From assembly GCF_030068615.1 (NCBI RefSeq), contig NZ_JASJOC010000012.1:1-64000 (forward strand): DNA of 64,000 nt, given 5' to 3'. Of this stretch, positions 17,764 through 53,984 are shown piece after piece. The DNA comes from Halostagnicola sp. A-GB9-2. GTDB lineage: Archaea; Halobacteriota; Halobacteria; Halobacteriales; Natrialbaceae. The position numbers and the translations under genes were made by a program. Under the pieces are notes generated by a model, which was not told the DNA's origin, searched no databases, and saw only the letters and a list, made by a program, of their open reading frames with translations. Position 1 is the first letter of the stretch; the number at the start of each line of letters is the position of its first letter.

Positions 17764-17840
17764 CAGGAGGTATACTCTATTCAGCGACCAAATTTATTAT
17801 GGAATCCGGTATAGGAATGCTAACCGGCCAACACTCACGA

Positions 17841-19577: not shown

Positions 19578-19580
19578 ACT

Positions 19581-20510: not shown

Positions 20511-20513
20511 ACT

Positions 20514-22176: not shown

Positions 22177-22377
22177 CGGACACGACCTCCGCCGAAATCA
22201 GACGACACGGGATGGTCTCCCAGGTGGATACCATCCTTCAGAGAGTCTCGTGTCGCCTGTTGCATTGATCTAGGAACCCAAACAGGTGCCGACTACGAGA
22301 GAATGTCGAAATCAGCTCGGGGTAAACACGTACTATGAATCAAAAGTATTAATTCGATTAGACTGCAGGTAGCAACC

Positions 22378-23553: not shown

Positions 23554-24406
23554 ATCGCTGGCCGACCACACCTGGCTCAAGATTGGCGGCAAAGCTGAGC
23601 TCGCGGTACCAGAGACGAAAGCGGAACTCGTCGACCTCCTCCAGGAGTGCCACGCGCACGATCGGCCGTATCGGATCCTCGGAAACGGATCGAATCTGCT
23701 CGTTTCCGACGAGGGTGTCGACCAGCTCGTTATCAAGACCACGGAGGCGTGTACAGACGTCGAGTTCGACGGGAACCGAGCTAATGTCGGTGCGTCGGTG
23801 ATGGCTCCGCAGTTCGTCAACGCGTGTATCGAACAGGATCTAGGCGGATACGAATATCTATACTCCGTGCCGGGAACGATCGGCGGCGCGATCTACATGA
23901 ACGCCGGCCGTGGGAAAAGCTACGGACTGACGATTGCTGACCACCTCGAGTCGGTCGAGATATTCGACGATGGGGAGGTCCGAGAACTTGACGTCGACGA
24001 GATCGAGTTCCGGCACAGGTACTCGAGTTTTCAGGACTACGACGACTGGGTCATATTGTCGGCAACGTTCGACCTCCCTTCCCAGCAAGCGGAAGAGGGC
24101 CGTGCAAAGGCACGAGAGCGGATGCAGAAAGTGAAAAGCCGAGAACGATCGAAACCCAACGCTGGGTCGGTGTTCAAATCCGGTGCGAAACTCCCGCTGC
24201 AGAAGGTGCCACCGGGTGGCCTGTCGGTTGGTGACGCACACTTCGTCTCGAAAAATCGGATCTGTCATACAGGGGGGGGAAACAAGCAAGGATATCGAAC
24301 AGCTGATCTCGCGGGCAAAGTGGCTCAATCGACTCTACCCACCGTTCGAAACACCCGAAGTCGAGTGGGATATCTGGAAGTGACTTCACTTCTCTATTAT
24401 GAATAG
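23537..24406 (+). pseudogene. MurB-family FAD-dependent reductase, frameshifted near the C-terminus
   Basis: The first 240 residues or so are a clear UDP-N-acetylenolpyruvoylglucosamine reductase. They show the FAD-loop motif G-N-G-S-N-L-L-V-S-D near residue 52, S-V-P-G-T-I-G-G-A-I-Y-M-N-A-G near residue 113, and the catalytic-serine region P-N-A-G-S-V-F-K near residue 209. At the G8 tract 24272-24279 the frame slips. Removing one G restores a normal end (D-I-E-Q-L-I-S-R-A-K to W-D-I-W-K, stop at 24383). As given, the protein has a foreign tail to 24406. Archaea of this class have no peptidoglycan, so a glycan-decorating role beside the pyruvyltransferase is more likely. It could be a sequencing error or a phase-variable gene. 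Confidence 0.82.
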
Positions 24407-25918
24407 ATGAGCAATCGTACGTTCTCGGGATTTCTCTCCGTGGTAACAGGGTCGTTTGGGGGGACACTACTAGGGCTGATAATTACCCCGCTTCTCGTGC
24501 GGATTCTTGGAAGCGGCAACTACGGTGATTACGCGTTTCTCCTCTCGATATTCGCTATTATCACGACCTTCGCTCACGCGGGAATCTCTGCCGGGATTCG
24601 AAAATACATCGCAGAAGACCGCGTAGAAACTAGTTGGAAGGACAATGTTTTCGGGTTTTATGCGCGTCTGGCTGTCGCATTAGCTCTGATTTTCGGTATT
24701 ATGCTCGTTCTCTTTGCCCAATTTGGACGGGTCGAAGAGTGGCTGGGAGAAAGTTTCGAACTATACTTAATTCTACTTGCCGTACTCCTATTAGCAAATC
24801 AACTATTCTACGTCTCTCGATATACGTTGATAGGGCTGCATCTCGAACGGTACTCGGAGCCGCTCGTCGTGCTGAAAAAGCTACTGTACGGAATCTTCGG
24901 TCTCAGCCTCGCGTACATCGGGTTTGACGTCGCCGGTGTCCTCGTCGGTCAGGCGATCGCCTTTCTCTTTTGTGCAGTTATAGCAACGTGGTACCTCGGA
25001 AACCATATTGACCTCAAAGCGGCGTTCAGGGCCGCTCCATCGGACTTCTCCCGGCGGAATCTAGTGAGTTTTAATGTTTTCAACACCATATTCATTTTTC
25101 TGACTATATCGCTCTACAACGTCGACATCCTGTTACTGCAGCCGATGGTCGGGAGTCACGAGACGGGGATATACAAAGCCGCGTTGGTCATCGCGGAGTT
25201 TATCTGGGTCGTCCCCCTCGCGATCCAGACCGTCTTCATTCACTCGTCCTCGGAGCTCTGGTCGAACCAGAAGCACGAAGCGATCACCAGAATGGCGAGC
25301 AAATCGACTCGATACACGCTCCTGTTTACGCTACTCTTGGTCATTGGTGTCGCAGCTCTCTCCTCGGATTTTGTCCCGCTGTATTTCGGGTCGGAATTCG
25401 ATGTCGCAGTGACACCACTTCTGTTACTGTTACCAGGCGTACTGGGCTTCGCTATTGCCAGGCCCATCTTCGCGATCGGACAGGGGAAAGGCGAACTCCG
25501 ATTGCTAATCGTGGCTACGGGATCTGCAGCAGTCCTCAATCTGCTCTTGAACTTGCTTCTAATACCTAGATATGGCATGGCAGGGGCGGCAGTCGCGACG
25601 AGTATCGGATACGGATCGATGGTGGTGTTTCACGGACTCACCGCCCGTCAAATCGGCTACTACCCGTTCGCTGACCTTCGTCTCGGCCGGATTGTCGTGA
25701 CGGCAGGGATCGCAGCACCAGTGATATTTAGTCTTTCATACTTCCTGACGAATTCGCTACTCTCGTTGTTGATCGTTCCTCCCGTCGGGTTCGCTGTCTA
25801 CTCCGTACTCGCGTTACGAACTCGAGCAGTGGACCAAGACGAGATCCTACCGCTGCTAGAATTCGTCCCTTCACCATTCGAGGAGTGGTCGGTCGAACTC
25901 CTCCACCGGATCGGGTGA
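24407..25918 (+). CDS. Wzx-type polysaccharide flippase (MATE/MOP superfamily)
   Basis: Integral membrane protein of 503 residues with 12 to 14 hydrophobic segments spread evenly along the chain. The family-typical start (G-F-L-S-V-V-T-G-S-F-G-G) is followed by R-I-L-G-S-G-N-Y-G-D-Y. It should move lipid-linked oligosaccharide across the membrane, the export step for the glycan assembled by the rest of the cluster. The start codon lies directly after the MurB-like frame, so translational coupling is likely. It is the last intact gene of the cluster. Confidence 0.88.
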   Translation: MSNRTFSGFLSVVTGSFGGTLLGLIITPLLVRILGSGNYGDYAFLLSIFAIITTFAHAGISAGIRKYIAEDRVETSWKDNVFGFYARLAVALALIFGIMLVLFAQFGRVEEWLGESFELYLILLAVLLLANQLFYVSRYTLIGLHLERYSEPLVVLKKLLYGIFGLSLAYIGFDVAGVLVGQAIAFLFCAVIATWYLGNHIDLKAAFRAAPSDFSRRNLVSFNVFNTIFIFLTISLYNVDILLLQPMVGSHETGIYKAALVIAEFIWVVPLAIQTVFIHSSSELWSNQKHEAITRMASKSTRYTLLFTLLLVIGVAALSSDFVPLYFGSEFDVAVTPLLLLLPGVLGFAIARPIFAIGQGKGELRLLIVATGSAAVLNLLLNLLLIPRYGMAGAAVATSIGYGSMVVFHGLTARQIGYYPFADLRLGRIVVTAGIAAPVIFSLSYFLTNSLLSLLIVPPVGFAVYSVLALRTRAVDQDEILPLLEFVPSPFEEWSVELLHRIG

Positions 25919-27099
25919 CGAAGTCGTCGGAACAATACCTACACTTTCGTTGTCGAAAACGTGTCACAAACAGGCCAGTCCAGTCAGTAAACGATAATCC
26001 GAATTTTACAGTTGGAGGCCGCTTCAGTCGATTCGGGGCCCTCGCCTGTCTGTAACCGCCGCTCCGCCTCAACCCGATCCTCGAGATATCCCACGTATAT
26101 CTGCCAGCTGTCCGTCGGTATCGTATCGGTCCTTGAGGTCAATCCAACCACCAACATCGGCGAACAGGTAAAACCCTCGAGGATCGCCGCTAACATCGCG
26201 CCGGTTTTCCTCGCAGTCGAACACGCCGAGGACACGGCTGAGTACGTCCTCACAATGTACCCGACGCCGAGGTCGCCAGGAGATCCGTCTCCTCGAAACG
26301 ATCGGACCCGACACGTCTGGAAGCGCGGACGCACACCTTAAGGTACAAGACGCAATCGTCCGCAACGCCTGGGATGCGACGTACATGTATGCGGTCTCGA
26401 TTGTCGCGATGCTCAGGTAATCATCGGGTGGTCTCTCCTTCACGTACTTGAGCGTACATCCTCATGACGGCGCTCTCATGGCACTACAAGTAGCCCTCTA
26501 CGTTACCGCCGCGATTGAGGTCATGGCTGACTTCAGCCGGTTTGGCTTCCTCGTCCCGACAGAAACCATCGAGCTACGTTCACTGTTGACTAAGGTGCGT
26601 TCCACATTCTCGGCGGGACGACCCTCGTGGTAGCGATCGGCGCGTTGCTCACCTGAGGTATCGACGAAAAGTCGCCGTGATGCTCTCGCGCTCGGAGCGC
26701 TCTCCACCACGCACTCGATCTCTTGTTGATCAACTCCTGGCTGCTCCTACAGCGTTTTCTGGCCGTTCACGCAATACCAGCCACCGAAACCGGACCTCTA
26801 TCGCAACAGCAATCGCTGGCCTGTGCTGGTCTCCGGTCTGGTCACCGCGATTGTATGGTCTGCTGACCTCGGGTATTCGAGGATCCCATGAAAGAGCGAT
26901 CACCAAGCCTTGAGCGACTCTCACCCCTCGATTGGCATCGCTACGACTGGGACACCGTGGCCGAACAGGCGGGGCAGGGTTGCTTCAGCTCTCGGAGAGC
27001 GTTGGTAAGAACGGTCTATATGAAACCTTGTAAGGTTGCGACAGAGGATGGCCTAGCGTCCCAGCGCAGGAGTCCCCTCTTGGCGCACGTAACTTGTTT
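25919..27099. other. Decayed DNA, no intact gene
   Basis: GC-rich sequence with short broken frames on both strands. One plus-strand stretch reads V-Q-D-A-I-V-R-N-A-W-D-A-T near 26344-26400, and another L-Q-V-A-L-Y-V-T-A-A-I near 26480-26515. They look like pieces of a former protein, perhaps a transposase, but I cannot name the family. I see no promoter or terminator I would defend. Confidence 0.45.
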
Positions 27100-28474
27100 G
27101 TAGTACTCTATATCAATCTTTATACGATCGCTCTGGTGGAAGGGAACAGGTCACCTCCTACAGAACCATACTCTGCTATATTTGATTTATTCGACCTACT
27201 GATTTAGCCCACTTATGCGTCGCACCTATAGGTTCTTAGATCTACCTGGCAACACAGTCACGCAGGGCAAATCCTATATTTGATTCTATTTGAGATTGAT
27301 GGCGACATAATCTCTTACACGTGTACTAACGTAAAGGAATCAAATGTGCTATTTGGGGGAGAGTACAGAGAGTGGTTGAATTTTGTACCGGATCGCACAA
27401 CTGATAGAACTTCGTTCTCTCAAATCCATCAGAATATGAACTATTCTATCTTTGGTGGAGGTGATGATTTTATGCTGACTAAATATCTGTCAAAATTCTC
27501 GGGAGGTAGAAATGAGTATAAATTACAATACTATGTTCCAAAGAGCTAATCCCCGGCTCAGAGTATTCGGATAGCGAGGTATTGATCTAGTACCATATTA
27601 CTGCCTCTATTAACCGATAAACGCTATTTCGAAGAGTTCGCCGATGGCTATAGATATCTAACTGACCTCTTTATTAGGAGTAAGCGGTCACTCGACCACG
27701 TGGACAGAACCGTATCAAAATATAGGTCTACATGCTCCAAATACGCGTTAATTACTTTATAGCTTGTGGGGTGGTAGCCCGATGAACGTCAAGAGAGTAT
27801 TGTATAGATTCGCCATTTTTATGACATATGATCATTAGGTAATTCGCCCAATAGACATTCTGACAAAAGTGTGTATTTTTCGAGTATTTGTCCAAACAAT
27901 CCAGAGCAGAAGATTGGTCACCAGACAGTAACTGAGTTTGTGACACCCCTTGCACCCGAGTGATTTTGTCGATATCACCCTAGCCACCGAATGAAAATTG
28001 GATCTCCAGTCCATACTATGGGAACTATCCATTGGAGATTTTAGTCACACTTGAGAACCCACACTCCTCGCAACGAGTGAAATTGGATCATGTCTATCCC
28101 TAAAATTCCCAGTAGATCATAGCTATCCTATCCTCACAACAAAGAGTGGTAGTTACTATCATCTCGGAAAATTCATTTACTGACATACAGTCATCTATAC
28201 GAGTAATATATACAACTGAAATCGCCATTAAACGTTCAAATACAGACGATCTGTCTACCATCTCGTCTTTTTATATGTAACGCTCTCCTGTAGGAAATTG
28301 TTGATACAGTTCTACACGGTAGCGTTAGAACAGAGACTATTGGTCTAACGACTAAGCGACCGGATTCTATTCCCGGTTAGTCTAGCATAGAATCGCCAGA
28401 TAGCTCCACATCAACAATGTGCTACGCAAGAGCACTGGCTCTTCTCTCCGGTGATTAAATATCGGAGCGACAAA
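27100..28474. other. AT-rich gene desert
   Basis: Base composition changes sharply to AT-rich here, unlike the GC-rich flanks. Only one modest frame stands out (27280-27549). The remainder has frequent stops on both strands. The composition suggests foreign DNA or a heavily eroded mobile element at the border between the glycan cluster and the accessory island. Confidence 0.5.
27280..27549 (+). CDS. Possible small gene or gene fragment, unknown
   Basis: Frame of 89 codons from a TTG inside the AT-rich desert. The peptide is mixed and globular-looking (F-E-I-D-G-D-I-I-S-Y at the start, glycine-rich F-G-G-G-D-D-F near residue 67). No family is recognised, the start codon is weak and there is no clear ribosome-binding site. 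It may be the C-terminal end of a lost gene. Confidence 0.22.
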   Translation: MILFEIDGDIISYTCTNVKESNVLFGGEYREWLNFVPDRTTDRTSFSQIHQNMNYSIFGGGDDFMLTKYLSKFSGGRNEYKLQYYVPKS

Positions 28475-28786
28475 TTATTTCTCCTTAGTCTCATCAAGGT
28501 CACTTGCATTAAGATCTTCATTCAGATATGCAAGTCCATTATTGGTGATTCTATAGTAACCACGTTTTTCATCGGTCTTTTTGAGGAGCCCAGCATCTGC
28601 GAGTATGTTCATTCGCCGAGAGATCGTATTTTGGCTCCGATCTAAGACACCAAGTTCTTCAACGAGATTGTACCAAACTGTTGTCGGCGGCAATGCGATT
28701 CGATGATCCCTTTCGGTAGTTAATTCTTGAAAATACTCTAATATTGCGTCATCAGCTTCGTTCATCCACGACACACGGGCGCGCAT
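28475..28786 (-). CDS. PhiH1-repressor-like winged-helix regulator
   Basis: DNA-binding protein of 103 residues. The N-terminus M-R-A-R-V-S-W-M-N-E-A-D-D and the Y-N-L-V-E-E-L-G-V and S-R-R-M-N-I-L-A-D-A-G-L segments are typical of the small winged-helix family related to the repressor of haloarchaeal phage phiH1. The wing is K-R-G-Y-Y-R-I-T near residue 80. It is divergent from the operon starting at 29012. An imperfect inverted repeat lies between them (28832-28857), so it may control that operon and itself. Confidence 0.82.
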   Translation of the reverse strand: MRARVSWMNEADDAILEYFQELTTERDHRIALPPTTVWYNLVEELGVLDRSQNTISRRMNILADAGLLKKTDEKRGYYRITNNGLAYLNEDLNASDLDETKEK

Positions 28787-28831
28787 ACCCTGTACGTTGG
28801 TCGTTTACTCATTAACTGCACCGAATTGGAT

Positions 28832-28857
28832 ACTGAATGGGTCATATGGTCCATTAG
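28832..28857. promoter_or_regulatory. Operator-like inverted repeat between divergent genes
   Basis: The arms ACTGAATGG and CCATTAGT flank a GTCATATGGT centre; one base is missing in the right arm. It lies 46 bp upstream of the phiH1-like regulator start. AT-rich sequence suited to a TATA element (ACATAAATACTT, 28868-28879) follows toward the plus-strand operon. Binding by the regulator is an inference. Confidence 0.4.
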
Positions 28858-29011
28858 TGGACTATACACATAAATACTTAAGTTGGTGGAGCATATACCT
28901 CATGGTACGGAAGCTACACGCGGATTTGCATCTTACAGGTTTCGAAAACAGCGGACCGGTGCTAGGATCACCGAGTCCGCGAGTAGCTACCGTAACTCGG
29001 CTACGGAAGCC

Positions 29012-29449
29012 ATGTACGAAAACAACACACGAGACCTTGAAGGTCTCGATCGATCAGACGCATCACTCGAGAACAAACCACAGTGGACAACCTGCTCCGC
29101 GTTCGAACGCGACCTCCTAATCGCGATCGCGGCCCTCGAGAACACCAACAACCCTCCAGCCACAGACGCCATCACCGACTTCCTCACGGACTGGTACACC
29201 ACCATCAACCACGCCGACCTCTACCAAGCCCTCGAGGAACTCAAAACCAAGTCCCTGCTCACCCAGAACGGCCGCCGCCCAGCAACATACAGGCTCACCA
29301 CCGATGGCCACCACCTGCTGGAAGCGTACATAGCCGACCTCACAACGATCTGTAACCCCAATCAGATCACCATCACCCTCGAGCGCCCAATCACCCCCGG
29401 CGACCTCGAACAGGCCTACTGCAAACTCCAACAGGAGGCCTACCGATGA
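29012..29449 (+). CDS. PadR-like winged-helix protein, first gene of nuclease operon
   Basis: Protein of 145 residues. The N-terminal 24 residues are acidic. A winged-helix unit follows: helix A-F-E-R-D-L-L-I-A-I near residue 27, recognition region A-D-L-Y-Q-A-L-E-E-L-K near residue 66, and wing R-R-P-A-T-Y-R-L-T-T. A short C-terminal helix ends the protein. I prefer the ATG at 29012 to the TTG at 28883 because the upstream part has no fold. It overlaps the next gene by four bases. A truncated relative lies at 51442-51951 ahead of a second nuclease gene. Confidence 0.65.
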   Translation: MYENNTRDLEGLDRSDASLENKPQWTTCSAFERDLLIAIAALENTNNPPATDAITDFLTDWYTTINHADLYQALEELKTKSLLTQNGRRPATYRLTTDGHHLLEAYIADLTTICNPNQITITLERPITPGDLEQAYCKLQQEAYR

Positions 29450-29904
29450 CCGACCCCATCACCCTCCAGTGGACACCAACCACAAACCTCCCACGAAAAG
29501 TCACCTTCGAACCGACCGACAACGGCTACCGCCGAACAGAACACGAGTGGAACGGCACTACCTGGCGCCATTGCGGAAACGAACACGTCACCACCTGCAC
29601 TCTCACTCCAACAGACCCGCCAACCCTCGAGGAACTCCTCTCCACCATCTACGACACCTGGACTGGGCCGGATCCCCAGGTCCTCGTCTTCGACTCGCCC
29701 CCATCCACCACCGACCATAACGTCATCGCGGCCGTCGACGGCGAGTTCCGCCATCGAAACACCACAACCGACGAGTACCACGCCGTCACGAGCGACGCAA
29801 TCACCCACCACGCGCAACACCACGGCCTTCCCACGGTCCGCCCACTCTCGACAACCCCCTACGACCGAACCCACTTCACCACGAGCTCACTGCTCGATTC
29901 CTAA
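29446..29904 (+). CDS. Hypothetical protein, homologous to C-terminal domain of 31211-31924
   Basis: Acidic protein of 152 residues with no family I recognise. It begins I-T-L-Q-W-T-P and contains a W-R-H-C-G-N-E-H-V strand and a P-Q-V-L-V-F-D-S-P strand. The same order of motifs (I-T-L-Q-W-T-P, G-W-R-P-R-T-R-E-D-V, P-Q-T-L-V-F-E-P) recurs in residues 72-225 of the protein at 31211-31924, which shows common descent. It probably forms a mixed alpha/beta domain. It starts inside the end of the PadR-like gene (ATGA overlap). Confidence 0.65.
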   Translation: MTDPITLQWTPTTNLPRKVTFEPTDNGYRRTEHEWNGTTWRHCGNEHVTTCTLTPTDPPTLEELLSTIYDTWTGPDPQVLVFDSPPSTTDHNVIAAVDGEFRHRNTTTDEYHAVTSDAITHHAQHHGLPTVRPLSTTPYDRTHFTTSSLLDS

Positions 29905-29907
29905 CCA

Positions 29908-30120
29908 ATGACCAACGACGAACCCGACTACGAGACCTACGAACGTACACTCGAGGGGATCGATACGCTCGCGTACAACCTCCTCGAGGAAGCCAAAACC
30001 GACGACAGCCTCGAACCCGCCCATCAACAGCGCATGATTCACCAGCTTCGACAAAGCCGCACAGCAATCGACCCACTCCTGCTCTGGGTAGACAGGATGA
30101 CCGAAGAGACCAATGAGTGA
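29908..30120 (+). CDS. Small helical protein, homologous to N-terminal domain of 31211-31924
   Basis: Acidic, helical protein of 70 residues with a heptad-like pattern (L-E-G-I-D-T-L-A-Y-N-L-L-E-E-A, then H-Q-L-R-Q-S-R-T-A-I-D-P-L-L). The same pattern forms the first 65 residues of the 31211-31924 protein, and a looser version ends the fragment at 51442-51951. It may be a dimerisation or partner-binding module. It overlaps the next gene by eight bases. Confidence 0.6.
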   Translation: MTNDEPDYETYERTLEGIDTLAYNLLEEAKTDDSLEPAHQQRMIHQLRQSRTAIDPLLLWVDRMTEETNE

Positions 30121-31165
30121 CTACCAAGCCCGCCAACTCGCCCTCAATCTCCAGACGATCCCACCGGAGGCCCGCCTCGAGATTACCTGGACCGACGACA
30201 ACACCGAGACAACCCAGACCGGCGTCGTCACCGATCACGATCCCGAAACCGCCTATCGGAAACTCGAGACCGACGACCGAACACTTGAGCTCGTCCCGGC
30301 AGGCGACCAAAGCCAAATCACCGTCACGGAACCAACCGCGACGACGACCCACACCCTCGGCGAACTCACAGCTGTCGATATCGAAGCGGTGCCTCTCTTT
30401 GAGGCCCCACTGACCGACGAAGGCTTCGAGGTCCCCGAGCCACTACTCGACCTCACCGGCTACGTCACGGTTGACCTCCCCACGCGGAACCACGTCATCA
30501 ACCTCGCAGATCACGGCCTCCAACAAACAGATTACCGCCTGATCGGCAACATCGGCACGGATCCCGATCCTGACCTACTTCCGGACGAACCAACAGCCAT
30601 CCGCCCGGACACCGGGCCCCACTACCATATCAAGGTTATCGACGAACGCACCAATCCGGGGAACCACGAGTACGAACCCAAGGCCGACGACCAGGAACTG
30701 TTGACCCTCCGCCGAACTGTCCGCTCGCTCAAACGGGCCACGCCTACCACCCTCCCAGATGCCATCGAAGGCAACGTCCACGCCCGGTTCGAACGGACCG
30801 CCCTTGGGCTGCGGGCGGCCCACCGGGCGCTTTGTACGACGGGAACGCCGCCGAGCCCAGATACTGACCCTGCCGAGGACCCCAACTACTCCAAGGCTGT
30901 CGTCGACCTCGAGACAGAACTCGAAGCCTGCATGCAAACCCTTCGAGCGACCCTCGACCCCGACGACTGGCAGCCAGTCGAAGACCCCCTCACCGAGGCC
31001 AGATTCGAACTCAGGAACCTCCAGCAGCTACTGGTCGATGTCGACACCGACGACAGGAACACAGCCACCACAACTACCAACAGCAATCTCCCCGACATGC
31101 CCCAGTGGATTATCGAGCCAAATGCACCCGCGCCCGTCCAGCGAGGTAACCACGATGAGGAGTGA
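30113..31165 (+). CDS. Hypothetical protein of nuclease operon
   Basis: Protein of 350 residues, unrecognised. The first 180 residues are rich in beta strands and threonine, and residues 190-320 are predicted helical (L-R-R-T-V-R-S-L-K-R-A near residue 195). The tail is low-complexity and proline-rich. There is no signal peptide or membrane segment. Codon use and strong acidity match its neighbours, so it is a native member of this operon. The shortened second copy of the operon near 51442 has no counterpart of it. Confidence 0.6.
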   Translation: MSDYQARQLALNLQTIPPEARLEITWTDDNTETTQTGVVTDHDPETAYRKLETDDRTLELVPAGDQSQITVTEPTATTTHTLGELTAVDIEAVPLFEAPLTDEGFEVPEPLLDLTGYVTVDLPTRNHVINLADHGLQQTDYRLIGNIGTDPDPDLLPDEPTAIRPDTGPHYHIKVIDERTNPGNHEYEPKADDQELLTLRRTVRSLKRATPTTLPDAIEGNVHARFERTALGLRAAHRALCTTGTPPSPDTDPAEDPNYSKAVVDLETELEACMQTLRATLDPDDWQPVEDPLTEARFELRNLQQLLVDVDTDDRNTATTTTNSNLPDMPQWIIEPNAPAPVQRGNHDEE

Positions 31166-31210
31166 CGCCTCCACAGTCGCCTCCACGCCCAGCCCCACGG
31201 AGGGACGCCG

Positions 31211-31924
31211 ATGAGCGACGACTTCCAGCACTACCTCACGGCCCTCGAGAAGATCGACACCAGGATCCACCACCTGCTCGAGGAACTTGCCGATGACGAC
31301 GACCTCGACACCACCCTTCAGGCGGACACGACCGAACACCTTCGACAGGCCCGATCACAAATCGATCCGGCCCTGCTTGCCTTCCGCCACCACGAAGACG
31401 CCACACCCTCCACTGACGCGATCACCCTCCAGTGGACCCCCTCCGGCAAGCCGCCACGACGACTCCGCCTCGAACCCAACCGTGACAACGAGGGCTACGA
31501 GCGTCGCCTCCTCGAGTGGGACGGCCTGGGCTGGCGGCCACGCACCCGCGAGGACGTCGACGATGTTGCACTCTGTGCCCCGGCCGAAACAGACCAGCCA
31601 ACCGACCCACCGCGACTCGAGACACTCCGCGACCACCTCCGAGAGACGTGGCACCAGCAGGACCCACAGACACTCGTCTTCGAACCCACGACCAGAACCG
31701 AACTGGGCGTCGTCGTCGATGTCGAGGACGACCTCCGATACAGCGAACGCGACGATGACCAGTGGTACCCGATCACTGACGAGGGTCTCAGGAACTACCT
31801 CGAGCAGCGAGGCCAGCCCACACTCACACCCCTCTCGGAGACCCCGCTCAGCCGAGCACATTTCACGGGGAACCCACCCCACGACTGCGGGCCACATTCA
31901 GACCCAGATGAAGAGTCACCATGA
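31211..31924 (+). CDS. Hypothetical two-domain protein, fusion of the 29908 and 29446 types
   Basis: Protein of 237 residues. Residues 1-65 are helical and match the small protein at 29908-30120. Residues 70-225 match the protein at 29446-29904. What is two separate genes upstream is one gene here, which suggests that the two products bind each other. The function is unknown. A gap of 45 bases separates it from the preceding gene. Confidence 0.65.
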   Translation: MSDDFQHYLTALEKIDTRIHHLLEELADDDDLDTTLQADTTEHLRQARSQIDPALLAFRHHEDATPSTDAITLQWTPSGKPPRRLRLEPNRDNEGYERRLLEWDGLGWRPRTREDVDDVALCAPAETDQPTDPPRLETLRDHLRETWHQQDPQTLVFEPTTRTELGVVVDVEDDLRYSERDDDQWYPITDEGLRNYLEQRGQPTLTPLSETPLSRAHFTGNPPHDCGPHSDPDEESP

Positions 31925-31990
31925 TCTCCACGTCATTCACGCTCGTACAGACCACCGACCACCGACCACCTATCCACCCACAACAAAACC

Positions 31991-33040
31991 ATGCCAACTG
32001 ACAACACCCCAATCCCGAACGAATACTACGAACAGCTGCTGCCACTCCTCGAAACAATCGACGCGGTACGTAGATCGATCACTGACGATCTCCCGGCCAA
32101 CACCGAAGCGAATGGGAAAGCCCGTCGCCTCTTGCATGAGAGTCACCAATCCCTTCGGGAAGCCAAACAGATCCTTCCGGAGCCGGATCCGGGAGCCGAA
32201 ATCGTCCACAATACTACACCCGACGAGTTCGATGACTACGAGGACGCCTTGACACAGATCGAACATCGCCTCGAGCGCCTCCTCCAGTACACACACCAAG
32301 AACACCCCGATGAGTACCGCTACAGCGAGTCGCCAAAACTCAAGTTCGATATCGCCCGCATGTGTCTCGCCGCATTGCGGGACCTGCTGCCAGCGGTCGG
32401 GGACGAAAGCAAACACCTCCCAGACAGGACCAACGCACGCACCACGACCGGCTACAACCACGTCGACGGGCGCAAACAGGGCGATGGCCGCTGGCTCGAA
32501 TATCAGCTGTCCCGGTCGCTCAAACGCTGGGGATATGATGTCGAGACCCGCCAGACGGTCTTCAGCCTCGAAGTCGACGTCGTCGCGAAACGCGAGGACA
32601 AACAACACGAGCCCGACGACTGGATCGTCGCCCAGTGTAAAGACTGGCAGAGCCGAACCATTACCCCTGGGACGATCTTCCGGCTTTGTCTCGTGGCCTT
32701 TGCCTGCCGGGCGATGCCAGTGCTGTGTCATACGACCGAACTCACGAGGCGGGCCGAAGAACTCGCTCGCCAGTTCGAGGTGCGAGTGATCGAACTCGAA
32801 GCCCTCGAACGAGCCGAGATGCCCGCACTGAAGGTGACGAAACCGACCGGCGACCTCCATGATTGGGACGTCGAGCACCGAGTGCGTGAGAACCGTGGCA
32901 GCCTACCGGACCACTTTGAGCATGAGCCAGGCAAACGCTTCAGCTACGTCCCCGGCTTCGAGCCCGTCGGAACCCAAAGCGAGTACGAACCAATCGACGA
33001 CTCGCTTCCAGACGATTCACATCCCGCCTTCGGACACTGA
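31991..33040 (+). CDS. Mrr-like PD-(D/E)XK nuclease with helical N-terminus
   Basis: Protein of 349 residues. Residues 1-150 are helical and acidic, and may be a sensor or partner domain. Residues 160-290 form a restriction-endonuclease-like domain in the Mrr style: glutamate in G-R-W-L-E-Y-Q-L near residue 165, aspartate in L-E-V-D-V-V-A near residue 195, and the Q-x-K site in A-Q-C-K-D-W near residue 215. Mrr proteins are type IV enzymes that cut modified DNA. The catalytic order is complete, so activity is plausible. A 201-residue homologue without the helical domain lies at 51944-52549. Both stand directly upstream of a coiled-coil gene. Confidence 0.78.
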   Translation: MPTDNTPIPNEYYEQLLPLLETIDAVRRSITDDLPANTEANGKARRLLHESHQSLREAKQILPEPDPGAEIVHNTTPDEFDDYEDALTQIEHRLERLLQYTHQEHPDEYRYSESPKLKFDIARMCLAALRDLLPAVGDESKHLPDRTNARTTTGYNHVDGRKQGDGRWLEYQLSRSLKRWGYDVETRQTVFSLEVDVVAKREDKQHEPDDWIVAQCKDWQSRTITPGTIFRLCLVAFACRAMPVLCHTTELTRRAEELARQFEVRVIELEALERAEMPALKVTKPTGDLHDWDVEHRVRENRGSLPDHFEHEPGKRFSYVPGFEPVGTQSEYEPIDDSLPDDSHPAFGH

Positions 33041-33160
33041 TCCCACGGCTTCCGGTAGCTTCTCGGGCCCACAGTAGCCGGTAGCCGTCTTCAGACGGCT
33101 CGTTTGTCCGTCTCAGCAGCGATTGCTCACCAACCACGATATCGCCGAGTACACTCCACG

Positions 33161-34039
33161 ATGTCTTCACCCAGAGAGCCGACGCCAACAGCCGAACAGC
33201 TCAAAGACCAGTTCAACGACCGCTTCGACGCCCTTGAAGCCCGGATCGACGACCTCGAGCGGACACTCGAGGCGAAAGACGACCGTATCGATGCCCTCGA
33301 GAGCCACCTCGAGCACAAGGGAGACCGTATCGACGACCTCGAGGGTCAACTCGAAGGGCAAGCCGAATGCCTCGAGGAAACCGAGCAAGCGTGTGATCGC
33401 CTCGAGAAGTTAGCCGACGCCGCGATGAACAAAGCCACCATGAACAAAGAGCGGGTGACCGAACTCCAGTCCCGCGAACTCGAGAAGGGTGCACACCTGC
33501 GTGAGGACGCCGTCGATAAGCATGCCGTCGACGTACCTGATGGCCGGCTCGAGCGTCTGACCAAGGACGACGGCCGGCAGTACTTCCGGCTGCCCGAGAG
33601 TTCGGATCCACTTGGTCGTAGCGAGGTCTCGCTTGCCTACGGTGACCTGCTTCCGATTCAGCAACTGGCCCGGATGGACGAGGAGATGCGTCGCTCGGCA
33701 ACGAGTGCATTGCCGACGCGGCTGGCAGCGAAGCTCTGGCAGGCCCGCAGCGACGACAGCGTCGGCGACAACCCCTGGGAGAACGGCTGTCGGGAGATCG
33801 ATGAGTACGTCAAGGCGAGCGATCTTAAACATTGGATCCGACGCCAAGAACAGGGTATCAGCGAGAGTTATGCAAAGAAATTGGTCTCGCGGGTGATCGA
33901 CGCGCTGTTGGATCTTGCGAAGAACCGGGTTGCAGTGAGGAAGCGCACAGAACGAAAGAACGGCCTCGAGTACACTGAACGGCGGTTAGTACTGCCTACT
34001 GACGCAGCAATTCCTGGTGAGACGGGAGGGGAAGCGTAA
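33161..34039 (+). CDS. Coiled-coil protein with conserved C-terminal domain, intact copy 1
   Basis: Protein of 292 residues. Residues 10-85 form a long coiled coil of repeated D-D-R-I-D-D-L-E type heptads. Residues 90-292 form a conserved domain (L-Q-S-R-E-L-E-K-G-A-H-L, Y-G-D-L-L-P-I-Q-Q-L-A-R-M, A-K-L-W-Q-A-R, A-S-D-L-K-H-W-I-R-R-Q-E). The basic end (R-V-A-V-R-K-R-T-E-R-K) suggests nucleic-acid binding, but I do not recognise the family. Five more copies, one intact, occur in the window. The start at 33161 puts the coiled coil at the N-terminus. A conserved tail follows the stop. Confidence 0.78.
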   Translation: MSSPREPTPTAEQLKDQFNDRFDALEARIDDLERTLEAKDDRIDALESHLEHKGDRIDDLEGQLEGQAECLEETEQACDRLEKLADAAMNKATMNKERVTELQSRELEKGAHLREDAVDKHAVDVPDGRLERLTKDDGRQYFRLPESSDPLGRSEVSLAYGDLLPIQQLARMDEEMRRSATSALPTRLAAKLWQARSDDSVGDNPWENGCREIDEYVKASDLKHWIRRQEQGISESYAKKLVSRVIDALLDLAKNRVAVRKRTERKNGLEYTERRLVLPTDAAIPGETGGEA

Positions 34040-34254
34040 CGGCCGGTGACAGCTGGTGTCCTCGGATGACCGGGGACAGTGGGTGAGAGAACGCCTCGAG
34101 AGGGGTTCAGTAATTCTCTAGGAAGCCTCACTCACGGGACGAATGCGGGTATACGAGGGTTGGGTACCGGTTGGTGTGTCCCTCGAGTGGTCGTCGGTGG
34201 TCATACTGACGGACAAGGATCGAAGGTGGTTCTGAAGACAACATCTGTCCCCGG
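34040..34254 (+). repeat. Conserved cassette tail, copy 1
   Basis: Non-coding repeat after the coiled-coil gene. A stem-loop opens it (TGTCCTCGG at 34057-34065 pairs with CCGGGGACA at 34070-34078, loop ATGA). Shared blocks then follow around GCCTCGAGAG, TACGAGGGTTG and GTGTCCCTCGAGTGGTCGTC. It ends at the motif CTGAAGACAACATCTGTC (34232-34249), after which the sequence is unique. The same layout is found at 53574, 58468 and, without its head, at 55760. Confidence 0.85.
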
Positions 34255-34337
34255 ATACTGTGCTTTGCAAGTAACGAAGACGAAGGCTGGACTGAGGCCC
34301 TCGATCCTAAAGACTAGAAGCTTCTCACCCCAACCTG

Positions 34338-36492: not shown

Positions 36493-37152
36493 GTGATGTA
36501 CGAAGCCACATTTAAAATTAAGCATAGTAGTTTATACGCAACCATATCGAAGGAAAACAACTGCTATGTCGAAATGTGGTGTAACGAACACTGTGATCTT
36601 CTCCACATCAAAGAAATGGCCGACTCCGATGTCTCCCTCGTCGCACTCCGCGATTCGGCCGGAATCGACGACATCATCCGAACGGACAACGAGATGATCC
36701 TCATCACCGAGGAGTGTCTGTTAGGTCACGAAGAGAACCTTCTTGAGGGTTATCTGGAACGCCACAACTGTCTGTCGTTTCCGCCCCGGGAGTACCGGAA
36801 CGGGACGATCACGATACGAATCATCTCGCTGAACGAGGAGAACCTCACGACGTTCTTTCACGATATCAACGAGGATTACTCGGTAACCGTCGAATCGAAG
36901 CAGGAGATTGCGAACCTTCGATCGAACGATCCGCTATTGATGATCGACGCCGATGTCCCGAACCTCTCGGAGCGACAGCAGGAAGCGTTGCTGACGGCGT
37001 TCGATATGGGGTACTACGAGATCCCGAGACGACACACGACCGCGGATATCGCCGACGAGATGGGAATTCAGCGACGAACGTTCGAAGAACACCTGCGACG
37101 GAGCGAAGAGAAGTTGCTCAACAGTCTGGTCGATCACATTCGTCGCGCATGA
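36493..37152 (+). CDS. Bat-type HTH-10 transcriptional regulator
   Basis: Regulator of 219 residues. The N-terminal 150 residues form the haloarchaeal bacterioopsin-activator-like sensor region. The C-terminus is the HTH-10 domain (L-S-E-R-Q-Q-E-A-L-L near residue 157, H-T-T-A-D-I-A-D-E-M-G, then E-E-H-L-R-R-S-E-E-K). It lies 65 bases ahead of the ABC ATPase and near the hut genes, so it may control transport or histidine use. A similar HTH-10 end survives as a fragment at 47473-47650. Confidence 0.85.
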   Translation: MMYEATFKIKHSSLYATISKENNCYVEMWCNEHCDLLHIKEMADSDVSLVALRDSAGIDDIIRTDNEMILITEECLLGHEENLLEGYLERHNCLSFPPREYRNGTITIRIISLNEENLTTFFHDINEDYSVTVESKQEIANLRSNDPLLMIDADVPNLSERQQEALLTAFDMGYYEIPRRHTTADIADEMGIQRRTFEEHLRRSEEKLLNSLVDHIRRA

Positions 37153-37217
37153 TACCAAATAGGTCCTCCGTTTGGAGTGGAACTTTTAACGTGACTCACA
37201 GGACTCAACAAAGATAG

Positions 37218-38366
37218 ATGCCACAACAGCGCCCACACGAACAACCAACGGAACAGACAACGACCGACCGTACGCCCGTCGTCCACATCGATTCCGTTTC
37301 GAAATACTACGGCGACGACGTCGCAGCGGAGGATGTGTCGATTTCCGTTTCGAACGGCGAGTTTCTAACGATGCTCGGGCCAAGCGGGGCCGGAAAAACG
37401 ACGCTCTTGCATATGATCGCCGGCTTCGAGACGCCCACTGACGGCGAGATCTATACCAACGGTGAGCCGGTCTCACACAAGGCGCCGTACGAACGGAACA
37501 TCGGCCTCGTCTTTCAGGATCTCGCGCTCTTTCCGAACATGACCGTCGAGGAGAACATCGCGTACCCTCTGAAGATGCGACGACTCCCCGGGGACGAGAT
37601 CGACGAGAAGGTGAGCGACGTCCTCGAGCTCGTCCGCTTGCCCGCCGAGTACGCGCCGAAACCCGTCGACGAACTCTCGGGTGGACAGCAACAGCGGGTC
37701 GCGATCGCTCGGGCAATCGTCTTCGAACCGGCGCTGTTGCTCCTTGACGAACCGCTCTCGTCACTCGACAAGAAACTCCGCGAGGAGATGCGGGCCGAAC
37801 TCAGTCGCATTCACAACGAAACGGATCTGACGATAATTCACGTCACGCACAACCAGACGCAGGCACTGTCGATGGCCGATCGCATCGCGGTGCTCAACGG
37901 CGGCGAACTGGAACAGCTCGCACCGGCGAAGGAACTGTACTCCGATCCGGCCTCGACGTTCGTCGCCGATTTCATCGGCGATACGACGCTGTTTGAGGGC
38001 ACGGTCACTGAATTGAACGAAACCGGTACCGTCGTCGATCAGGGCGGGATCGAGGTCGCGTTCGATCCGCCGGACGGGATCGAACTCGGCTCCGAGGTCA
38101 CCGTCGGCGTACGCGCCGAACACGTCAGTATCGACGCTCAGGAGGGAGCGACGATCGACAACGGGTCACGGAACGTCTACAATGCAACGGTCGAATCCGT
38201 CTCGTTCGAGGGTGATCGAACGAAATACCAGGTTTCGCTGGACGGGTCCGAAATCACGATGCAGATCACCGCACCGAACAGTACCGAGACGGAGATCCAC
38301 GCGGTCGAATCAGACGTCAGTATCAGCTGGGTGGTAGCCGATATGCTGGTCTACCCAGAGTCGTGA
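37218..38366 (+). CDS. ABC transporter ATP-binding protein, polyamine/iron type (PotA-like)
   Basis: ATPase of 382 residues. Walker A is G-P-S-G-A-G-K-T-T near residue 55, the signature L-S-G-G-Q-Q-Q-R near residue 153, Walker B L-L-L-L-D-E-P near residue 173, and the H-loop histidine follows. A C-terminal TOBE-type regulatory domain spans residues 250-382. It should energise the permeases and binding protein encoded at 48153-51195, since no other ATPase is present there. They are 10 kb apart with the hut operon between them. Confidence 0.88.
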   Translation: MPQQRPHEQPTEQTTTDRTPVVHIDSVSKYYGDDVAAEDVSISVSNGEFLTMLGPSGAGKTTLLHMIAGFETPTDGEIYTNGEPVSHKAPYERNIGLVFQDLALFPNMTVEENIAYPLKMRRLPGDEIDEKVSDVLELVRLPAEYAPKPVDELSGGQQQRVAIARAIVFEPALLLLDEPLSSLDKKLREEMRAELSRIHNETDLTIIHVTHNQTQALSMADRIAVLNGGELEQLAPAKELYSDPASTFVADFIGDTTLFEGTVTELNETGTVVDQGGIEVAFDPPDGIELGSEVTVGVRAEHVSIDAQEGATIDNGSRNVYNATVESVSFEGDRTKYQVSLDGSEITMQITAPNSTETEIHAVESDVSISWVVADMLVYPES

Positions 38367-38463
38367 CCGGCTCGGAGTCGGCTCCTTCGACGCTTTTCTC
38401 GTCGATCCGGTGCCCATAATACTGCTGACGTCGCCCGCGAACCGGTCGTCTCGTCACTGTGCG

Positions 38464-39624
38464 CTATTTCCGTTCGAAGGCGGCCGAGATTCGATTGACT
38501 GCCGTTTCGATCGTTTCCGCATCCGTTGCGTACGAGAAGCGAACATACCCCTCGCCTCCGGGGCCGAAGACCGAGCCGGGGACTGCCGCCACGTGGGCAT
38601 CGGTCAATAGCTGTTCGACGATATCACGGCTCGTTCCCGAGCGCTCGCTGACATCGGCAAACACGTAAAACGCGCCGTCAGGTGCCGTCGCCGACACACC
38701 CGGAACGGCGTCGAGACGGGAGACCATTACCTCCCGTCGTTCGGCGAAGCGGTCATGAATCCGCTCGGCGGCGGCCGGCTGATCGAGGGCCGCTTCAGCG
38801 GCGGCCTGTGCGGGTTCGGCCGCACAGGAGACGATGTGCTCCTGGAGAACGCGCATCGCATCGATAATATCCGACGGGCCAGTCGCGTATCCGACTCGCC
38901 ATCCCGTCATCGCGTACGATTTTGAGAAGCTAAAGATCGAGACCGTTCTGTCGAACAGCGCTGGAGTGCTGGCCAGAGAGTGATGGGTTGCGCCGTCGTA
39001 GACGAGTTTCTCATAGGTCTCGTCCATGATGCAGAACAGATCGTTCTCGACAATGCGGTCCCCGAGCTTCGCCATTGTCTCCGAATCGATCACGCTCCCC
39101 GTCGGATTCGCTGGCGAATTCAACAGTACGACGGCGGTGTCCGACGAGATCGCCGCCTCGAGTTCCTTCGGTTGCGGGACGAAGTCGTTCTCGGCTGTCG
39201 TTTCGATCGGTTTCAGCGCCGCACCGGTGCTTCGGATCTGCCCCTCGTAATTCGGCCAGTACGGTGCTGGAACGAGGACCTCGTCGCCCGGATCACAGAT
39301 GACCGTCAGCGCAGTGAACAGGGCTTCCATCGCTCCGGCGGTAACGATAACTTCCTCAAGAGGATTGGCACGGATGCCGTTGTCCTCGGCGAGTTTGTCG
39401 GCGATGCGTTCCCGAAGGGATAGTCGGCCGAGCGTTTCAGTGTAGTGGGTCGCACCCTCGTCGAGTTCGTCGGTGACCGACTCGAGAATGGGTGTTGGCG
39501 TCGCGAAATCCGGTTCGCCGATACTGAGATCCCAGATCTGGTCCAGTTCCTGAGCCTGATCGAAGATTTCTCGGATTCCTGATTGCGGGATTCGATCGAT
39601 GCGGTCTGCTGTTCGGGTGTGCAT
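38464..39624 (-). CDS. Class I/II PLP-dependent aminotransferase
   Basis: Aminotransferase of 386 residues. The conserved N-S-P-A-N-P-T-G lies near residue 168, the Schiff-base lysine is in F-S-F-S-K-S-Y-A near residue 234 with M-T-G-W-R-V-G-Y after it, and the carboxylate-binding arginine is in V-R-F-S-Y near residue 363. It probably transaminates an aspartate-, aromatic- or branched-type amino acid. Together with the 2-hydroxyacid dehydrogenase upstream on the same strand, it could interconvert an amino acid, its keto acid and its hydroxy acid. Confidence 0.88.
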   Translation of the reverse strand: MHTRTADRIDRIPQSGIREIFDQAQELDQIWDLSIGEPDFATPTPILESVTDELDEGATHYTETLGRLSLRERIADKLAEDNGIRANPLEEVIVTAGAMEALFTALTVICDPGDEVLVPAPYWPNYEGQIRSTGAALKPIETTAENDFVPQPKELEAAISSDTAVVLLNSPANPTGSVIDSETMAKLGDRIVENDLFCIMDETYEKLVYDGATHHSLASTPALFDRTVSIFSFSKSYAMTGWRVGYATGPSDIIDAMRVLQEHIVSCAAEPAQAAAEAALDQPAAAERIHDRFAERREVMVSRLDAVPGVSATAPDGAFYVFADVSERSGTSRDIVEQLLTDAHVAAVPGSVFGPGGEGYVRFSYATDAETIETAVNRISAAFERK

Positions 39625-39758
39625 ACCGGGAGATGACGATAAACGAGCAAAGCGACTCCCGCACCGTTCGGAGGGGATTAATTACGGTCAGGACGATACT
39701 CGCTTCACGGTACCGGTTCCCGTCGTGGTGTCACCCGATGGAGGACCATGGGTCGCGG

Positions 39759-40760: not shown

Positions 40761-41061
40761 TTCGTCGTCGCGCTAGCGCCCCGTTATCCTATTACCTCCA
40801 TTCGGTGGATCAATACAAGTCGTCGCGGCATCGACTCTCGACCCTCGTCCACGATTGTCGCCACCAACTGTCGTGGATCTCCGGTCGAACGGTGGCCGTG
40901 CCGGATGTCCACATGAACGAGACGGCGCTCGTAACTGGCTTCGTTGGTCGGTCACAAGCGAGTCTCGACGGGAACCCGATTCGCTGTCAGTACCTCGCTT
41001 AAACCCCCCACCATACGTCGTTACCTAAGCCATTAGCAGCGTTTCCATAGAATGGGTAGAC
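40761..41061. other. Intergenic region upstream of hutU
   Basis: About 300 bases between divergent genes. Short frames exist but are antisense shadows. It must hold promoters for the dehydrogenase gene (minus) and the hut operon (plus). The last 60 bases are less GC-rich, and I do not see an unambiguous TATA element. Confidence 0.5.
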
Positions 41062-42792: not shown

Positions 42793-42829
42793 TCGCCACC
42801 GTTTGGCACTATATCCCACTCACTCAGCT

Positions 42830-45602: not shown

Positions 45603-45644
45603 ACTCCCCCGGGTCGAACGACCCGAAAAATTTGCGCTTCCGTC

Positions 45645-46088: not shown

Positions 46089-46165
46089 ACCGACTCCATC
46101 CGCGCTAGGGAGTAAAACGCACGCCCTCCAGATGGCGGTTCTCTCTTGGCGTAACCGCTCGTCGG

Positions 46166-51441: not shown

Positions 51442-51951
51442 AACTTTTCACTCGAGATCTGGTACACTGACATTGCCCATAGTGTCCTCTACAGCGCCCT
51501 CGAGACCCTCACAACCGAACGTCTCCTCGAGGAAATCACACCGAACCACCAGAGTGAATACCTCCTCACCGCCGACGACATCGATCTCTTCAACACCTAC
51601 ACGAATGACGTTCAGACAGCGTTGTACCGGGTCCGACGGGCGATCCTCGAGACACCACCGCCAGCGCACGACCATTGGGCGTATGACTCCGGACTGACCA
51701 CTGATTGGACTCACTATGATGAGCCAGTATCGAAGCTACAACTCCGATGTAGTGGGATCGCTCGCGCGGTGAATGTCGACGATGACCTCTCAGACATCCA
51801 GGCCAGACGTGCTCGGTCCCATCTCGGTGACGCTAGCCACCAACTCGAGACCCTTCGGTTGGGGCTTCGAACCATCCTCGAAATCGATTCTAAAACCACG
51901 GCCACCCAGAACGAGCCAAGTACACGAACCGCCGGTGAGACAGATGAGTAA
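51442..51951 (+). pseudogene. Truncated PadR-like gene fused to helical domain
   Basis: The frame is open from 51442 without a good start codon. The first 50 codons match the second half of the PadR-like protein at 29012-29449 (H-S-V-L-Y-S-A-L-E-T-L, then E-Y-L-L-T-A-D-D). Residues from about 95 on resemble the helical module of 29908-30120 (A-R-R-A-R-S-H-L-G-D-A-S-H-Q-L). It is thus a shortened, N-terminally truncated version of the operon at 29012. Its stop overlaps the nuclease start. Confidence 0.6.
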
Positions 51952-52549
51952 TCGCGATCCACCTTCTCGAGAGGCCATGGACGGTCGTGGCCAAGGAAGA
52001 GGACAATGGCTTGAGTACCAACTCGAGCGGGCACTCCGCCGGTGGGGGTATAGAGTAGACCGGAACGTCCACGTCTTCAGTCAGGAAGTCGACGTCGTCG
52101 CCGTCCGACACGAAAAGGAAGGCACCCCCACCGACTGGATCCTCGCCCAGTGCAAAGACTGGGAATCGACCCGGATTACCACTGAGACGATCTATCGGCT
52201 CTGTCTGATGGCATTTACCTCCCGAGCAATGCCTGTACTGTGTCACACGACAGCACTCACAGAGGACGCCCGCCGCATTGCACGCCATTGGGAGGTCCGT
52301 GTCCTGACCCTCGAGGACCTTCATCGCGGATCGTTGCCAGCACCGAACGTCGCCGAACCGACGGCCGAGTATGGGACCTACGAGACTCAGTATACAGCTC
52401 GCGAAGAGCGTGGATCGCTACCAGTGTTGTTCATGGGCGAACCGCGAAAGCAGTTTAGCTACGTCCCGGGGTTCACGCCAGTTGGACGATCTCACGAGTA
52501 CCGACCACTCAACGATACCGAGCACTCGGACGGTTCGGGGGGTGGCTAG
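51944..52549 (+). CDS. Mrr-like nuclease, short form
   Basis: Protein of 201 residues that consists almost only of the restriction-endonuclease-like domain. It has glutamate in Q-W-L-E-Y-Q-L near residue 23, aspartate in Q-E-V-D-V-V-A near residue 51 and Q-x-K in A-Q-C-K-D-W near residue 72. It aligns along its length with residues 158-340 of the protein at 31991-33040, but lacks that protein's 150-residue helical N-terminus. The ATG at 51944 overlaps the preceding stop. A coiled-coil gene follows 208 bases later, as in the first island. Confidence 0.78.
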   Translation: MSNRDPPSREAMDGRGQGRGQWLEYQLERALRRWGYRVDRNVHVFSQEVDVVAVRHEKEGTPTDWILAQCKDWESTRITTETIYRLCLMAFTSRAMPVLCHTTALTEDARRIARHWEVRVLTLEDLHRGSLPAPNVAEPTAEYGTYETQYTAREERGSLPVLFMGEPRKQFSYVPGFTPVGRSHEYRPLNDTEHSDGSGGG

Positions 52550-52757: not shown

Positions 52758-53573
52758 ATGACGAAGACAGACACGACGATAGCACAGTTTACGGAAACAC
52801 TCGAGCGCTTCTCTAATCGTATTGATGAACTCGAGGCCGAACTTGAACAGAAAGACGACCGCATCGACCAACTCGAACAGGACCGAGATCGACTCGAAGA
52901 GCGAGTCGGTAATGTCGAAGCAGAGTCCATTCGCCGCGAAAAGGTAGCTGAGGCCGCGATGAACAAAGCCACCATGAACAAAGACCGCGTCACCGAACTG
53001 CAGTCCCGCGAACTCGAGAAAGGTGCACACCTGCGCGAGGACGCCGTCGACGAACACGCAGTCGACGTTCCTAATGGCCGGATCGAGCGTCTGACCAAGG
53101 ACGATGGGGAAACCTACTACCGACTCCCCGAGAGCGCAGACCCGCTTGACCGTGGTGAAGTCTCGCTCGCCTACGGGGACTTGCTGCCAGTCCAGCAGTT
53201 AGCACGGATGGACGACGAGATGCGTCGCTCGGCAACGAGTGCATTGCCGACACGGCTGGCGGCGAAACTCTGGCAGGCCCGCAGCGACGACAGTGTCGGC
53301 GACAACCCCTGGGAAGCTGGCTGTAAGGATATCGCGGAGTACGTCAAAGCCAGCGATCTCAAACACTGGATTCGGCGGCAGGAAGCCGGCATCAGCGAGA
53401 GCTACGCGAAGAAGCTGGTTTCGCGGGTGATCGACGCGCTGTTGGATCTTGCGAAGAACCGGGTTGCCGTTCGGAAGCGCCAAGAAAGGAAGAACGGCCT
53501 CGAGTACACTGAACGGCGGTTAGTACTGCCTACTGACGCAGCAATTCCTGGTGAGACGGGAGGGGAAGCGTAA
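52758..53573 (+). CDS. Coiled-coil protein with conserved C-terminal domain, intact copy 3
   Basis: Protein of 271 residues. The N-terminal coiled coil (residues 10-60, D-D-R-I-D-Q-L-E-Q-D-R-D-R-L-E) differs in sequence from that of copy 1. From residue 70 on (A-A-M-N-K-A-T-M-N-K-D-R-V) the two are nearly identical, and the last 55 bases of the genes are the same. A shared C-terminal domain with a variable coiled coil suggests that the N-terminus is exchanged or evolves fast. The conserved tail follows. Confidence 0.78.
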   Translation: MTKTDTTIAQFTETLERFSNRIDELEAELEQKDDRIDQLEQDRDRLEERVGNVEAESIRREKVAEAAMNKATMNKDRVTELQSRELEKGAHLREDAVDEHAVDVPNGRIERLTKDDGETYYRLPESADPLDRGEVSLAYGDLLPVQQLARMDDEMRRSATSALPTRLAAKLWQARSDDSVGDNPWEAGCKDIAEYVKASDLKHWIRRQEAGISESYAKKLVSRVIDALLDLAKNRVAVRKRQERKNGLEYTERRLVLPTDAAIPGETGGEA

Positions 53574-53788
53574 CGGCCGGTGACAGCTGGTGTCCTCGGA
53601 TGACCGGGGACAGTGGGTGAGAGAACGCCTCGAGAGAGGCCTAGTGACTCTCTGGGACGCCAATCTCACAACAGGACATCGGGTGTACGAGGGTTAGTTA
53701 GCATTGGGTGTATCGCTCGAGTGGTCGTCGGTGGTCACAACGAAGGACGGGGGTTGGAGGATATCCTGAAGACAACAGCTGTCACTGG
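53574..53788 (+). repeat. Conserved cassette tail, copy 3
   Basis: The stem-loop at 53591-53612 is identical to that of copy 1. GCCTCGAGAGAGGCC and the CTCGAGTGGTCGTCGGTGGT block follow. The tail ends with CTGAAGACAACAGCTGTCAC at 53766-53785. The sequence after it is specific to this cargo module. Confidence 0.85.
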
Positions 53789-53984
53789 TGTCTCAAATTC
53801 ATCGGCCGCCGCTCCCAAACACAATCAAGGCACTCGAGTCGGCTTCAAACCCACAAGGGTTCGGCTGAATCCACCTCATGTGAGGTATTTCTCGAGATGC
53901 CAGTGCTCTCTTCAAACTCACAAGGGTTCGTCTGAATCGCGACCATTCCTCATACTTTTCATTCAGGACAATTTATAGTAAACC

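Follow-up and report, generated by a model that had tools for sequence, protein, structure and literature searches.

A Putative Multi-Subunit Nuclease Operon Next to a Coiled-Coil Gene of Haloarchaeal Mobile Elements

Introduction

What is the function of a compact operon that encodes a nuclease and its partner proteins immediately upstream of a gene that recurs on haloarchaeal plasmids and proviruses? The question is raised by a 64-kb stretch of DNA (the window), which spans the initial 64 kb of contig C4 (93 kb) from a genome of 4.68 Mb in the family to which Natrialba and Halobiforma belong. A modular nuclease operon of this kind is found on the well-studied plasmid pNRC100 and in several haloarchaeal families, where it is annotated only as "hypothetical" or "restriction endonuclease". 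No paper on this operon was found in the open-access literature, a result that constitutes weak evidence. The analysis presented here indicates that a salt-loving archaeon encodes an undescribed, probably multi-subunit nuclease directly ahead of a DNA-binding gene typical of plasmids, proviruses, and gene arrays, and that this nuclease may be a weapon of one mobile element against competing DNA. The named parts, and a link to the downstream gene that is persistent yet dispensable, offer a candidate example of archaeal restriction encoded by a mobile element that is amenable to testing. The analysis also exposes a widespread element, composed of the downstream coiled-coil gene (CC) and an adjacent site, with candidate roles in replication, mobility, and gene capture.

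Results and Discussion

Organization of the Operon

Six forward open reading frames that abut or overlap one another encode a PadR-like protein, p152, p70, p350, p237, and a 349-residue nuclease, and are followed by CC (Table 1). The reading frames are open and tightly packed, and their status as genes is backed by homologous operons elsewhere. A strong strand asymmetry appears over the operon between positions 28000 and 34000, with a GC skew of -0.25 and an AT skew of up to +0.33, C and A being enriched on the coding strand.

Both nucleases of the window had been reported to lie directly upstream of an intact CC gene, and this arrangement is observed at 33161 and at 52758. A PadR-like helix had also been reported at both places. 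The gene is intact at 29012, and its relatives hold the same position in three other loci (L014, L039, and L042); its PadR match falls below the Pfam cut-off. The second locus retains a remnant only (frame 51442-51948, in frame with the next reading frame of 109 residues), with no gene of its own. The two nuclease-CC-array units are separated by a transport and metabolic block at 37000-51200 that contains ABC transporter parts, an aminotransferase, and an M20-type amidase.

Table 1. Coordinates of the features identified in the window
Feature	Position	Strand	Basis
wHTH2, PhiH1-type winged-helix repressor gene, divergent	28475..28786	-	best Pfam lines are winged helices, below cut-off
PadR-like winged-helix gene, operon gene 1	29012..29449	+	PadR E = 2.7e-4; phrog_4278 E = 2e-12
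p152, putative adaptor module	29446..29904	+	profile match to p237 and relatives (corresponds to p237 C-terminal part)
p70, small helical module	29908..30120	+	profile match (corresponds to p237 N-terminal part)
p350, N-terminal domain and helical domain	30113..31165	+	helical part homologous to nuclease N-terminus
p237, p70-like module and p152-like module	31211..31924	+	profile matches
349-residue nuclease, helical N-terminal domain and Mrr_cat-like PD-(D/E)XK domain	31991..33040	+	alignments, model, structural neighbours
CC (coiled coil and winged helix) gene, intact, leader of first array	33161..34039	+	reading frame, model
~214-bp cis site after first CC gene	34040..34256	+	46-locus alignment, 59-locus motif scan
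PadR-like helix remnant in frame with small reading frame (51622-51951), before second nuclease	51442..51951	+	E = 1.9e-9
Short nuclease, nuclease domain only, exact start uncertain	~51953..52549	+	55% identity to first nuclease C-terminal domain
Second intact CC gene, leader of second array	52758..53573	+	reading frame
cis site after second CC gene	53574..53790	+	motif scan
Sites after other CC copies	58468-58685, 60075-60291
Site without CC	55767-55943

Nuclease Domain

The first-pass annotation assigned the same active-site residues to both nucleases, and E170, D196, and Q215-x-K217 are indeed kept in the 349-residue protein and in the short copy. E170, D196, and K217 are invariant in an alignment with 19 relatives, and position 215 is occupied by either Q or E. 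The structural model of the longer protein has a low mean pLDDT of 61, with values of 70-80 in the core, where the order of strands and helices is that of PD-(D/E)XK enzymes. The closest structures are those of AF1548 (Z of 12.7 over 106 residues at 2.9 Å), EndoMS, Can2-type nucleases, and AspBHI. The alignment and the model together give the alpha-beta-beta-beta-alpha-beta core and the E, D, and (D/E/Q)-x-K residues of the superfamily, and the longer nuclease models as a PD-(D/E)XK (Mrr_cat-like) enzyme. No solved structure is convincingly related to it by sequence; the search returned helical chance matches only. Values of dN/dS between 0.05 and 0.24 were obtained for pairs of relatives (NG86), which indicates purifying selection on the nuclease.

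Mrr_cat is matched in 4 of the 19 relatives, with a best E-value of 3e-6 and one protein (L027) above the curated cut-off; Pfam gives no direct match for the 349-residue nuclease itself. In haloarchaea, Mrr is a sporadically distributed type IV enzyme that has been reported to be absent from Natrialbaceae (PMC6471742). The nuclease resembles Mrr-type enzymes (Mrr_cat PF04471; Haloferax volcanii Mrr) in its PD-(D/E)XK domain with D...(Q/E)-x-K, and differs from them in its helical domain, which is common to p350, and in its location within a multi-gene operon. The Mrr_N winged helix gave no Pfam match in the nuclease. The N-terminal 140 residues are modelled instead as a helical bundle, whose structural matches are generic four-helix proteins that are uninformative on function. 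Two Mrr_cat matches occur elsewhere in the genome, from which the nuclease is seen to be a separate branch; its family diverges from haloarchaeal Mrr and has different partner proteins. The predicted core is also similar to that of the modification-dependent PD-(D/E)XK enzymes AspBHI and MspJI in the structural comparison. The SRA-like reading domain of those enzymes is not recognised in the window system, where adaptor proteins would take its place, if anything does.

No defence model of the PADLOC catalogue is matched by the proteins from p152 through the nuclease, and the short nuclease matches PDC-S02 only at an E-value of 0.004. The nuclease was not found in viral and phage collections (IMG/VR and phage records).

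Partner Proteins

The partner proteins had been described as unknown, and this description stands: library searches with p152, p70, p350, and p237 gave nothing above chance-level lines. Profile searches reveal that the operon is built of shuffled modules. Protein p237 consists of a p70-like module followed by a p152-like module, and residues 183-314 of p350 are matched by the profile of the nuclease N-terminus with an E-value of 4e-33. A single protein combines p350 with the nuclease domain in three loci (L027, L107, and L111), a fusion that occurs in Halorubrum. A complex of p350 and the nuclease is likely because of this fusion and the common helical domain. The gene for p237 immediately precedes that of the 349-residue nuclease in every full-length three-gene locus.

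Distribution of the Nuclease and Its Linkage to CC

Relatives of the nuclease were identified by profile search in 37 of 392 genomes of the order, a patchy distribution like that of accessory defence genes. CC lies directly downstream of the nuclease in 10 of the 12 assessable loci of Natrialbaceae, the exceptions being L019 and L043. Outside this family, 24 loci from Halobacterium, Halorubrum, and other genera pair p237 with the nuclease and lack CC; a DUF7344 winged helix precedes the pair in nearly all of them. The replicons of these CC-free three-gene loci are plasmids such as pNRC100, and others; the stand-alone nuclease module is mostly plasmid-borne and patchy. The statement that the operon is always upstream of CC is therefore correct for the two window loci and for most Natrialbaceae loci, but it applies to none of the 24 three-gene loci of other families and to no fused or distant relative.

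A tree of 40 nuclease domains was rooted at its midpoint, so that the direction of change is uncertain. At least four changes are needed to account for the CC label on this tree, and the CC-free three-gene form makes up one clade. CC linkage is thus seen in several nuclease lineages. Adjacency of the nuclease and CC by chance is extremely improbable, since 10 of 12 nucleases share the strand of CC and precede it by no more than a few hundred bases, despite the presence of only a handful of CC genes per genome of about 4 Mb. A MarR-like winged-helix gene stands after many CC-free nuclease operons (L020, L022, L041, and L096-L105) and may be part of the system in that form.

CC Gene

CC was detected in 42 of 100 genomes at E < 1e-10, compared with 7 for the nuclease. 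The count rises to 52 of 100 at the default limit, and the excess over 42 is probably coiled-coil noise. The CC model contains a coiled coil of about 100 residues and a winged helix (pLDDT of 81) with no recognisable catalytic domain. Pfam lines for CC proteins are restricted to coiled coils. Beyond the winged helix, the search for a known fold in CC gave only weak structural matches (Z of 6.1 or less).

The CC survey covered 73 copies, among which are a few duplicates. A divergent PhiH1-type repressor, related to wHTH2 by profile, is found within 4.5 kb upstream of 55 of these copies. Many of the 73 are accompanied by small genes with p70, p152, or PadR-like fragments, and CC-only leaders and the nuclease operon thus have modules in common. 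CC occurs on 46 plasmid records and also on chromosomes, in several copies. It was not found in phage records by tblastn. The 49-kb circular plasmid CP031301, which contains tail, portal, and terminase genes, carries a CC homologue and a similar site (L172/L176). The order of CC homologue and then similar site, in the early region and behind a PadR-like gene, is seen in CP031301 and also in a 45.6-kb viral contig (L174).

One genome of a distant family (G069) contains six dispersed copies of CC plus site (L053-L058). These copies are about 1.35 kb long and about 90% identical, and lie in both orientations between unrelated housekeeping genes. Their sequence and placement suggest IS-like behaviour. 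Short stretches on either side of them have matches dispersed over other haloarchaeal genomes and, on visual inspection, are reminiscent of IS200/IS605-type ends.

Downstream Site and Toxin-Antitoxin Arrays

A site of about 214 bp, defined by alignment of 46 loci and recognised in 59 loci by motif scan, is located directly 3' of CC. It begins with an inverted motif, and the motif appears again in hairpin-capable form at a sharp right end. A structured RNA at this position was not supported, with 7 pairs showing almost no covariation and no Rfam match. CC remnants end precisely on the right and variably on the left; site-specific left ends were ruled out by the variation of the breakpoints.

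Sites in the window form same-strand arrays with a spacing of 1-3 kb and toxin-antitoxin-type genes between them, which gives an integron-like look. The two nuclease-CC pairs head two such arrays, and nuclease-CC pairs also head site arrays in one further genome (G046). The proposal that the toxin-antitoxin array is cargo of the nuclease system did not hold, because arrays follow CC and its site both with and without the nuclease. Ownership of the arrays by the nuclease is ruled out by the arrays at nuclease-less CC loci. Integrons, including those of archaea (PMC9668308), are similar to the CC arrays in that repeated sites line up behind a leader gene and that toxin-antitoxin genes abound in the cargo. 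They differ in that the CC leader is not a tyrosine integrase (coiled-coil Pfam lines only and a winged-helix model) and in that the sites, at about 214 bp, travel mostly with CC remnants.

Proposed Function and Alternative Explanations

The reading preferred here, held tentatively with a probability of about 0.45, is that the operon encodes a multi-subunit nuclease carried by a mobile element, and that this nuclease most likely serves to restrict or exclude competing DNA. The operon would be located in the leader of a plasmid- or provirus-derived mobile element whose hallmark is CC and the ~214-bp site, and small winged-helix proteins would regulate it. The adaptors p152/p237, p70, and p350 would assemble with the nuclease via shared helical modules and would probably read the target DNA, which the Mrr_cat-like domain would cut. 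The nuclease most likely acts for the element because it lies in line with CC behind the divergent PhiH1-type repressor, and it would restrict or exclude competing plasmids and viruses. The same p237-nuclease pair forms a stand-alone operon in other haloarchaea. Complex formation, DNA cleavage, co-transcription or shared regulation of the nuclease and CC, the exclusion role, and recognition of the site by the CC protein are what we infer. A defence role of the nuclease is plausible. The preferred reading is backed by the invariant catalytic residues, the PD-(D/E)XK core and its structural neighbours, the Mrr_cat matches of relatives, the p350 fusion and common helical domain, purifying selection, the linkage to CC in Natrialbaceae, the presence of CC on plasmids and a provirus, the patchy and mostly plasmid-borne stand-alone module, and some defence-type neighbours; it is weakened by the lack of nuclease hits in viral and phage collections, the missing direct Pfam match of the window protein, and the low mean confidence of the model.

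The nuclease could instead be an independent type IV-like restriction module of plasmids, whose position before CC in Natrialbaceae reflects descent from one capture with no functional coupling. This explanation is somewhat doubtful: the 24 CC-free loci in other families and the predominance of CC genes without a nuclease are in its favor, but a single chance capture poorly explains CC linkage at four places of the nuclease tree or the frequent partner-module fragments in CC-only leaders. In an unlikely assignment, the nuclease would serve the mobility of the CC element: CC would bind the ~214-bp sites, and breaks made by the nuclease would allow spreading or stacking of the element or its cassettes. 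The common divergent repressor, the lack of a recognisable catalytic domain in the CC model, the nuclease-CC pairs at the heads of arrays, and the precise right and variable left ends of the remnants are all consistent with this role; arrays and dispersed CC copies at nuclease-free loci argue against it, as do nuclease operons without CC or site. An arrangement in which the nuclease, adaptors, CC, and site constitute one gene-capture machine is improbable. Such a machine would be an integrase-less, integron-like system, with CC marking sites and the PD-(D/E)XK nuclease making the cuts by which toxin-antitoxin arrays are built.

A tie to a process such as plasmid replication had been named as a result that would count against a single defence or mobility system. 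CC is linked to plasmids, to a plasmid-provirus, and to a downstream site whose layout is like that of an archaeal rep-ori pair, and part of the nuclease-CC unit may concern replication or mobility. In the Rep-Arvir/RepSNJ2 replicons (PMC13107129), as with CC, a winged-helix gene with a plasmid and virus distribution is followed by about 210 bp with a start motif and a far-end hairpin; the likeness of the ~214-bp region at the 59 CC loci is one of size and layout. CC differs by its coiled coil and by the absence of DUF7845. This catalytic domain (PF25227) is absent among the best 25 matches, up to E = 1, of the window CC, and it is not one of the families found most often in 20 CC proteins. 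It is rather unlikely that CC and its site are the replication initiator and origin of plasmids and proviruses, with the nuclease operon as a replication accessory. The 46 plasmid records, the circular tailed provirus, the RepSNJ2-like site, and a weak structural likeness of CC to iteron Reps support such a role. Weighing against it, neither DUF7845 nor Rep_trans is among the Pfam lines listed for CC, several CC copies are chromosomal, Orc1/Cdc6-type genes are present on two CC-bearing records, the GC skew, uninformative as an origin test, does not turn at CC in CP031301 or CP095399, and most CC loci lack the nuclease. CC as the sole initiator of the CP031301 provirus was not supported, as one CP031301 protein matches Cdc6_lid.

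The proposal that the nuclease, its partners, and CC form one system is retained in part. They are same-strand neighbours with a common evolutionary history in Natrialbaceae, partner-module fragments are kept at many CC-only loci, and CC linkage is found in several nuclease lineages. Against a single obligate system, most CC loci have no nuclease, and the nuclease module exists without CC in other families.

Defence-Type Genes in the Neighbourhood

Raw matches to defence-type models (HerA/NurA, type IIG, and MADS) are seen for some of 50 neighbour proteins. At one CC locus (L178, NZ_CP095399, positions 16194-33079) the neighbours of the leader include methylase and helicase genes, which resemble a restriction or defence cluster.
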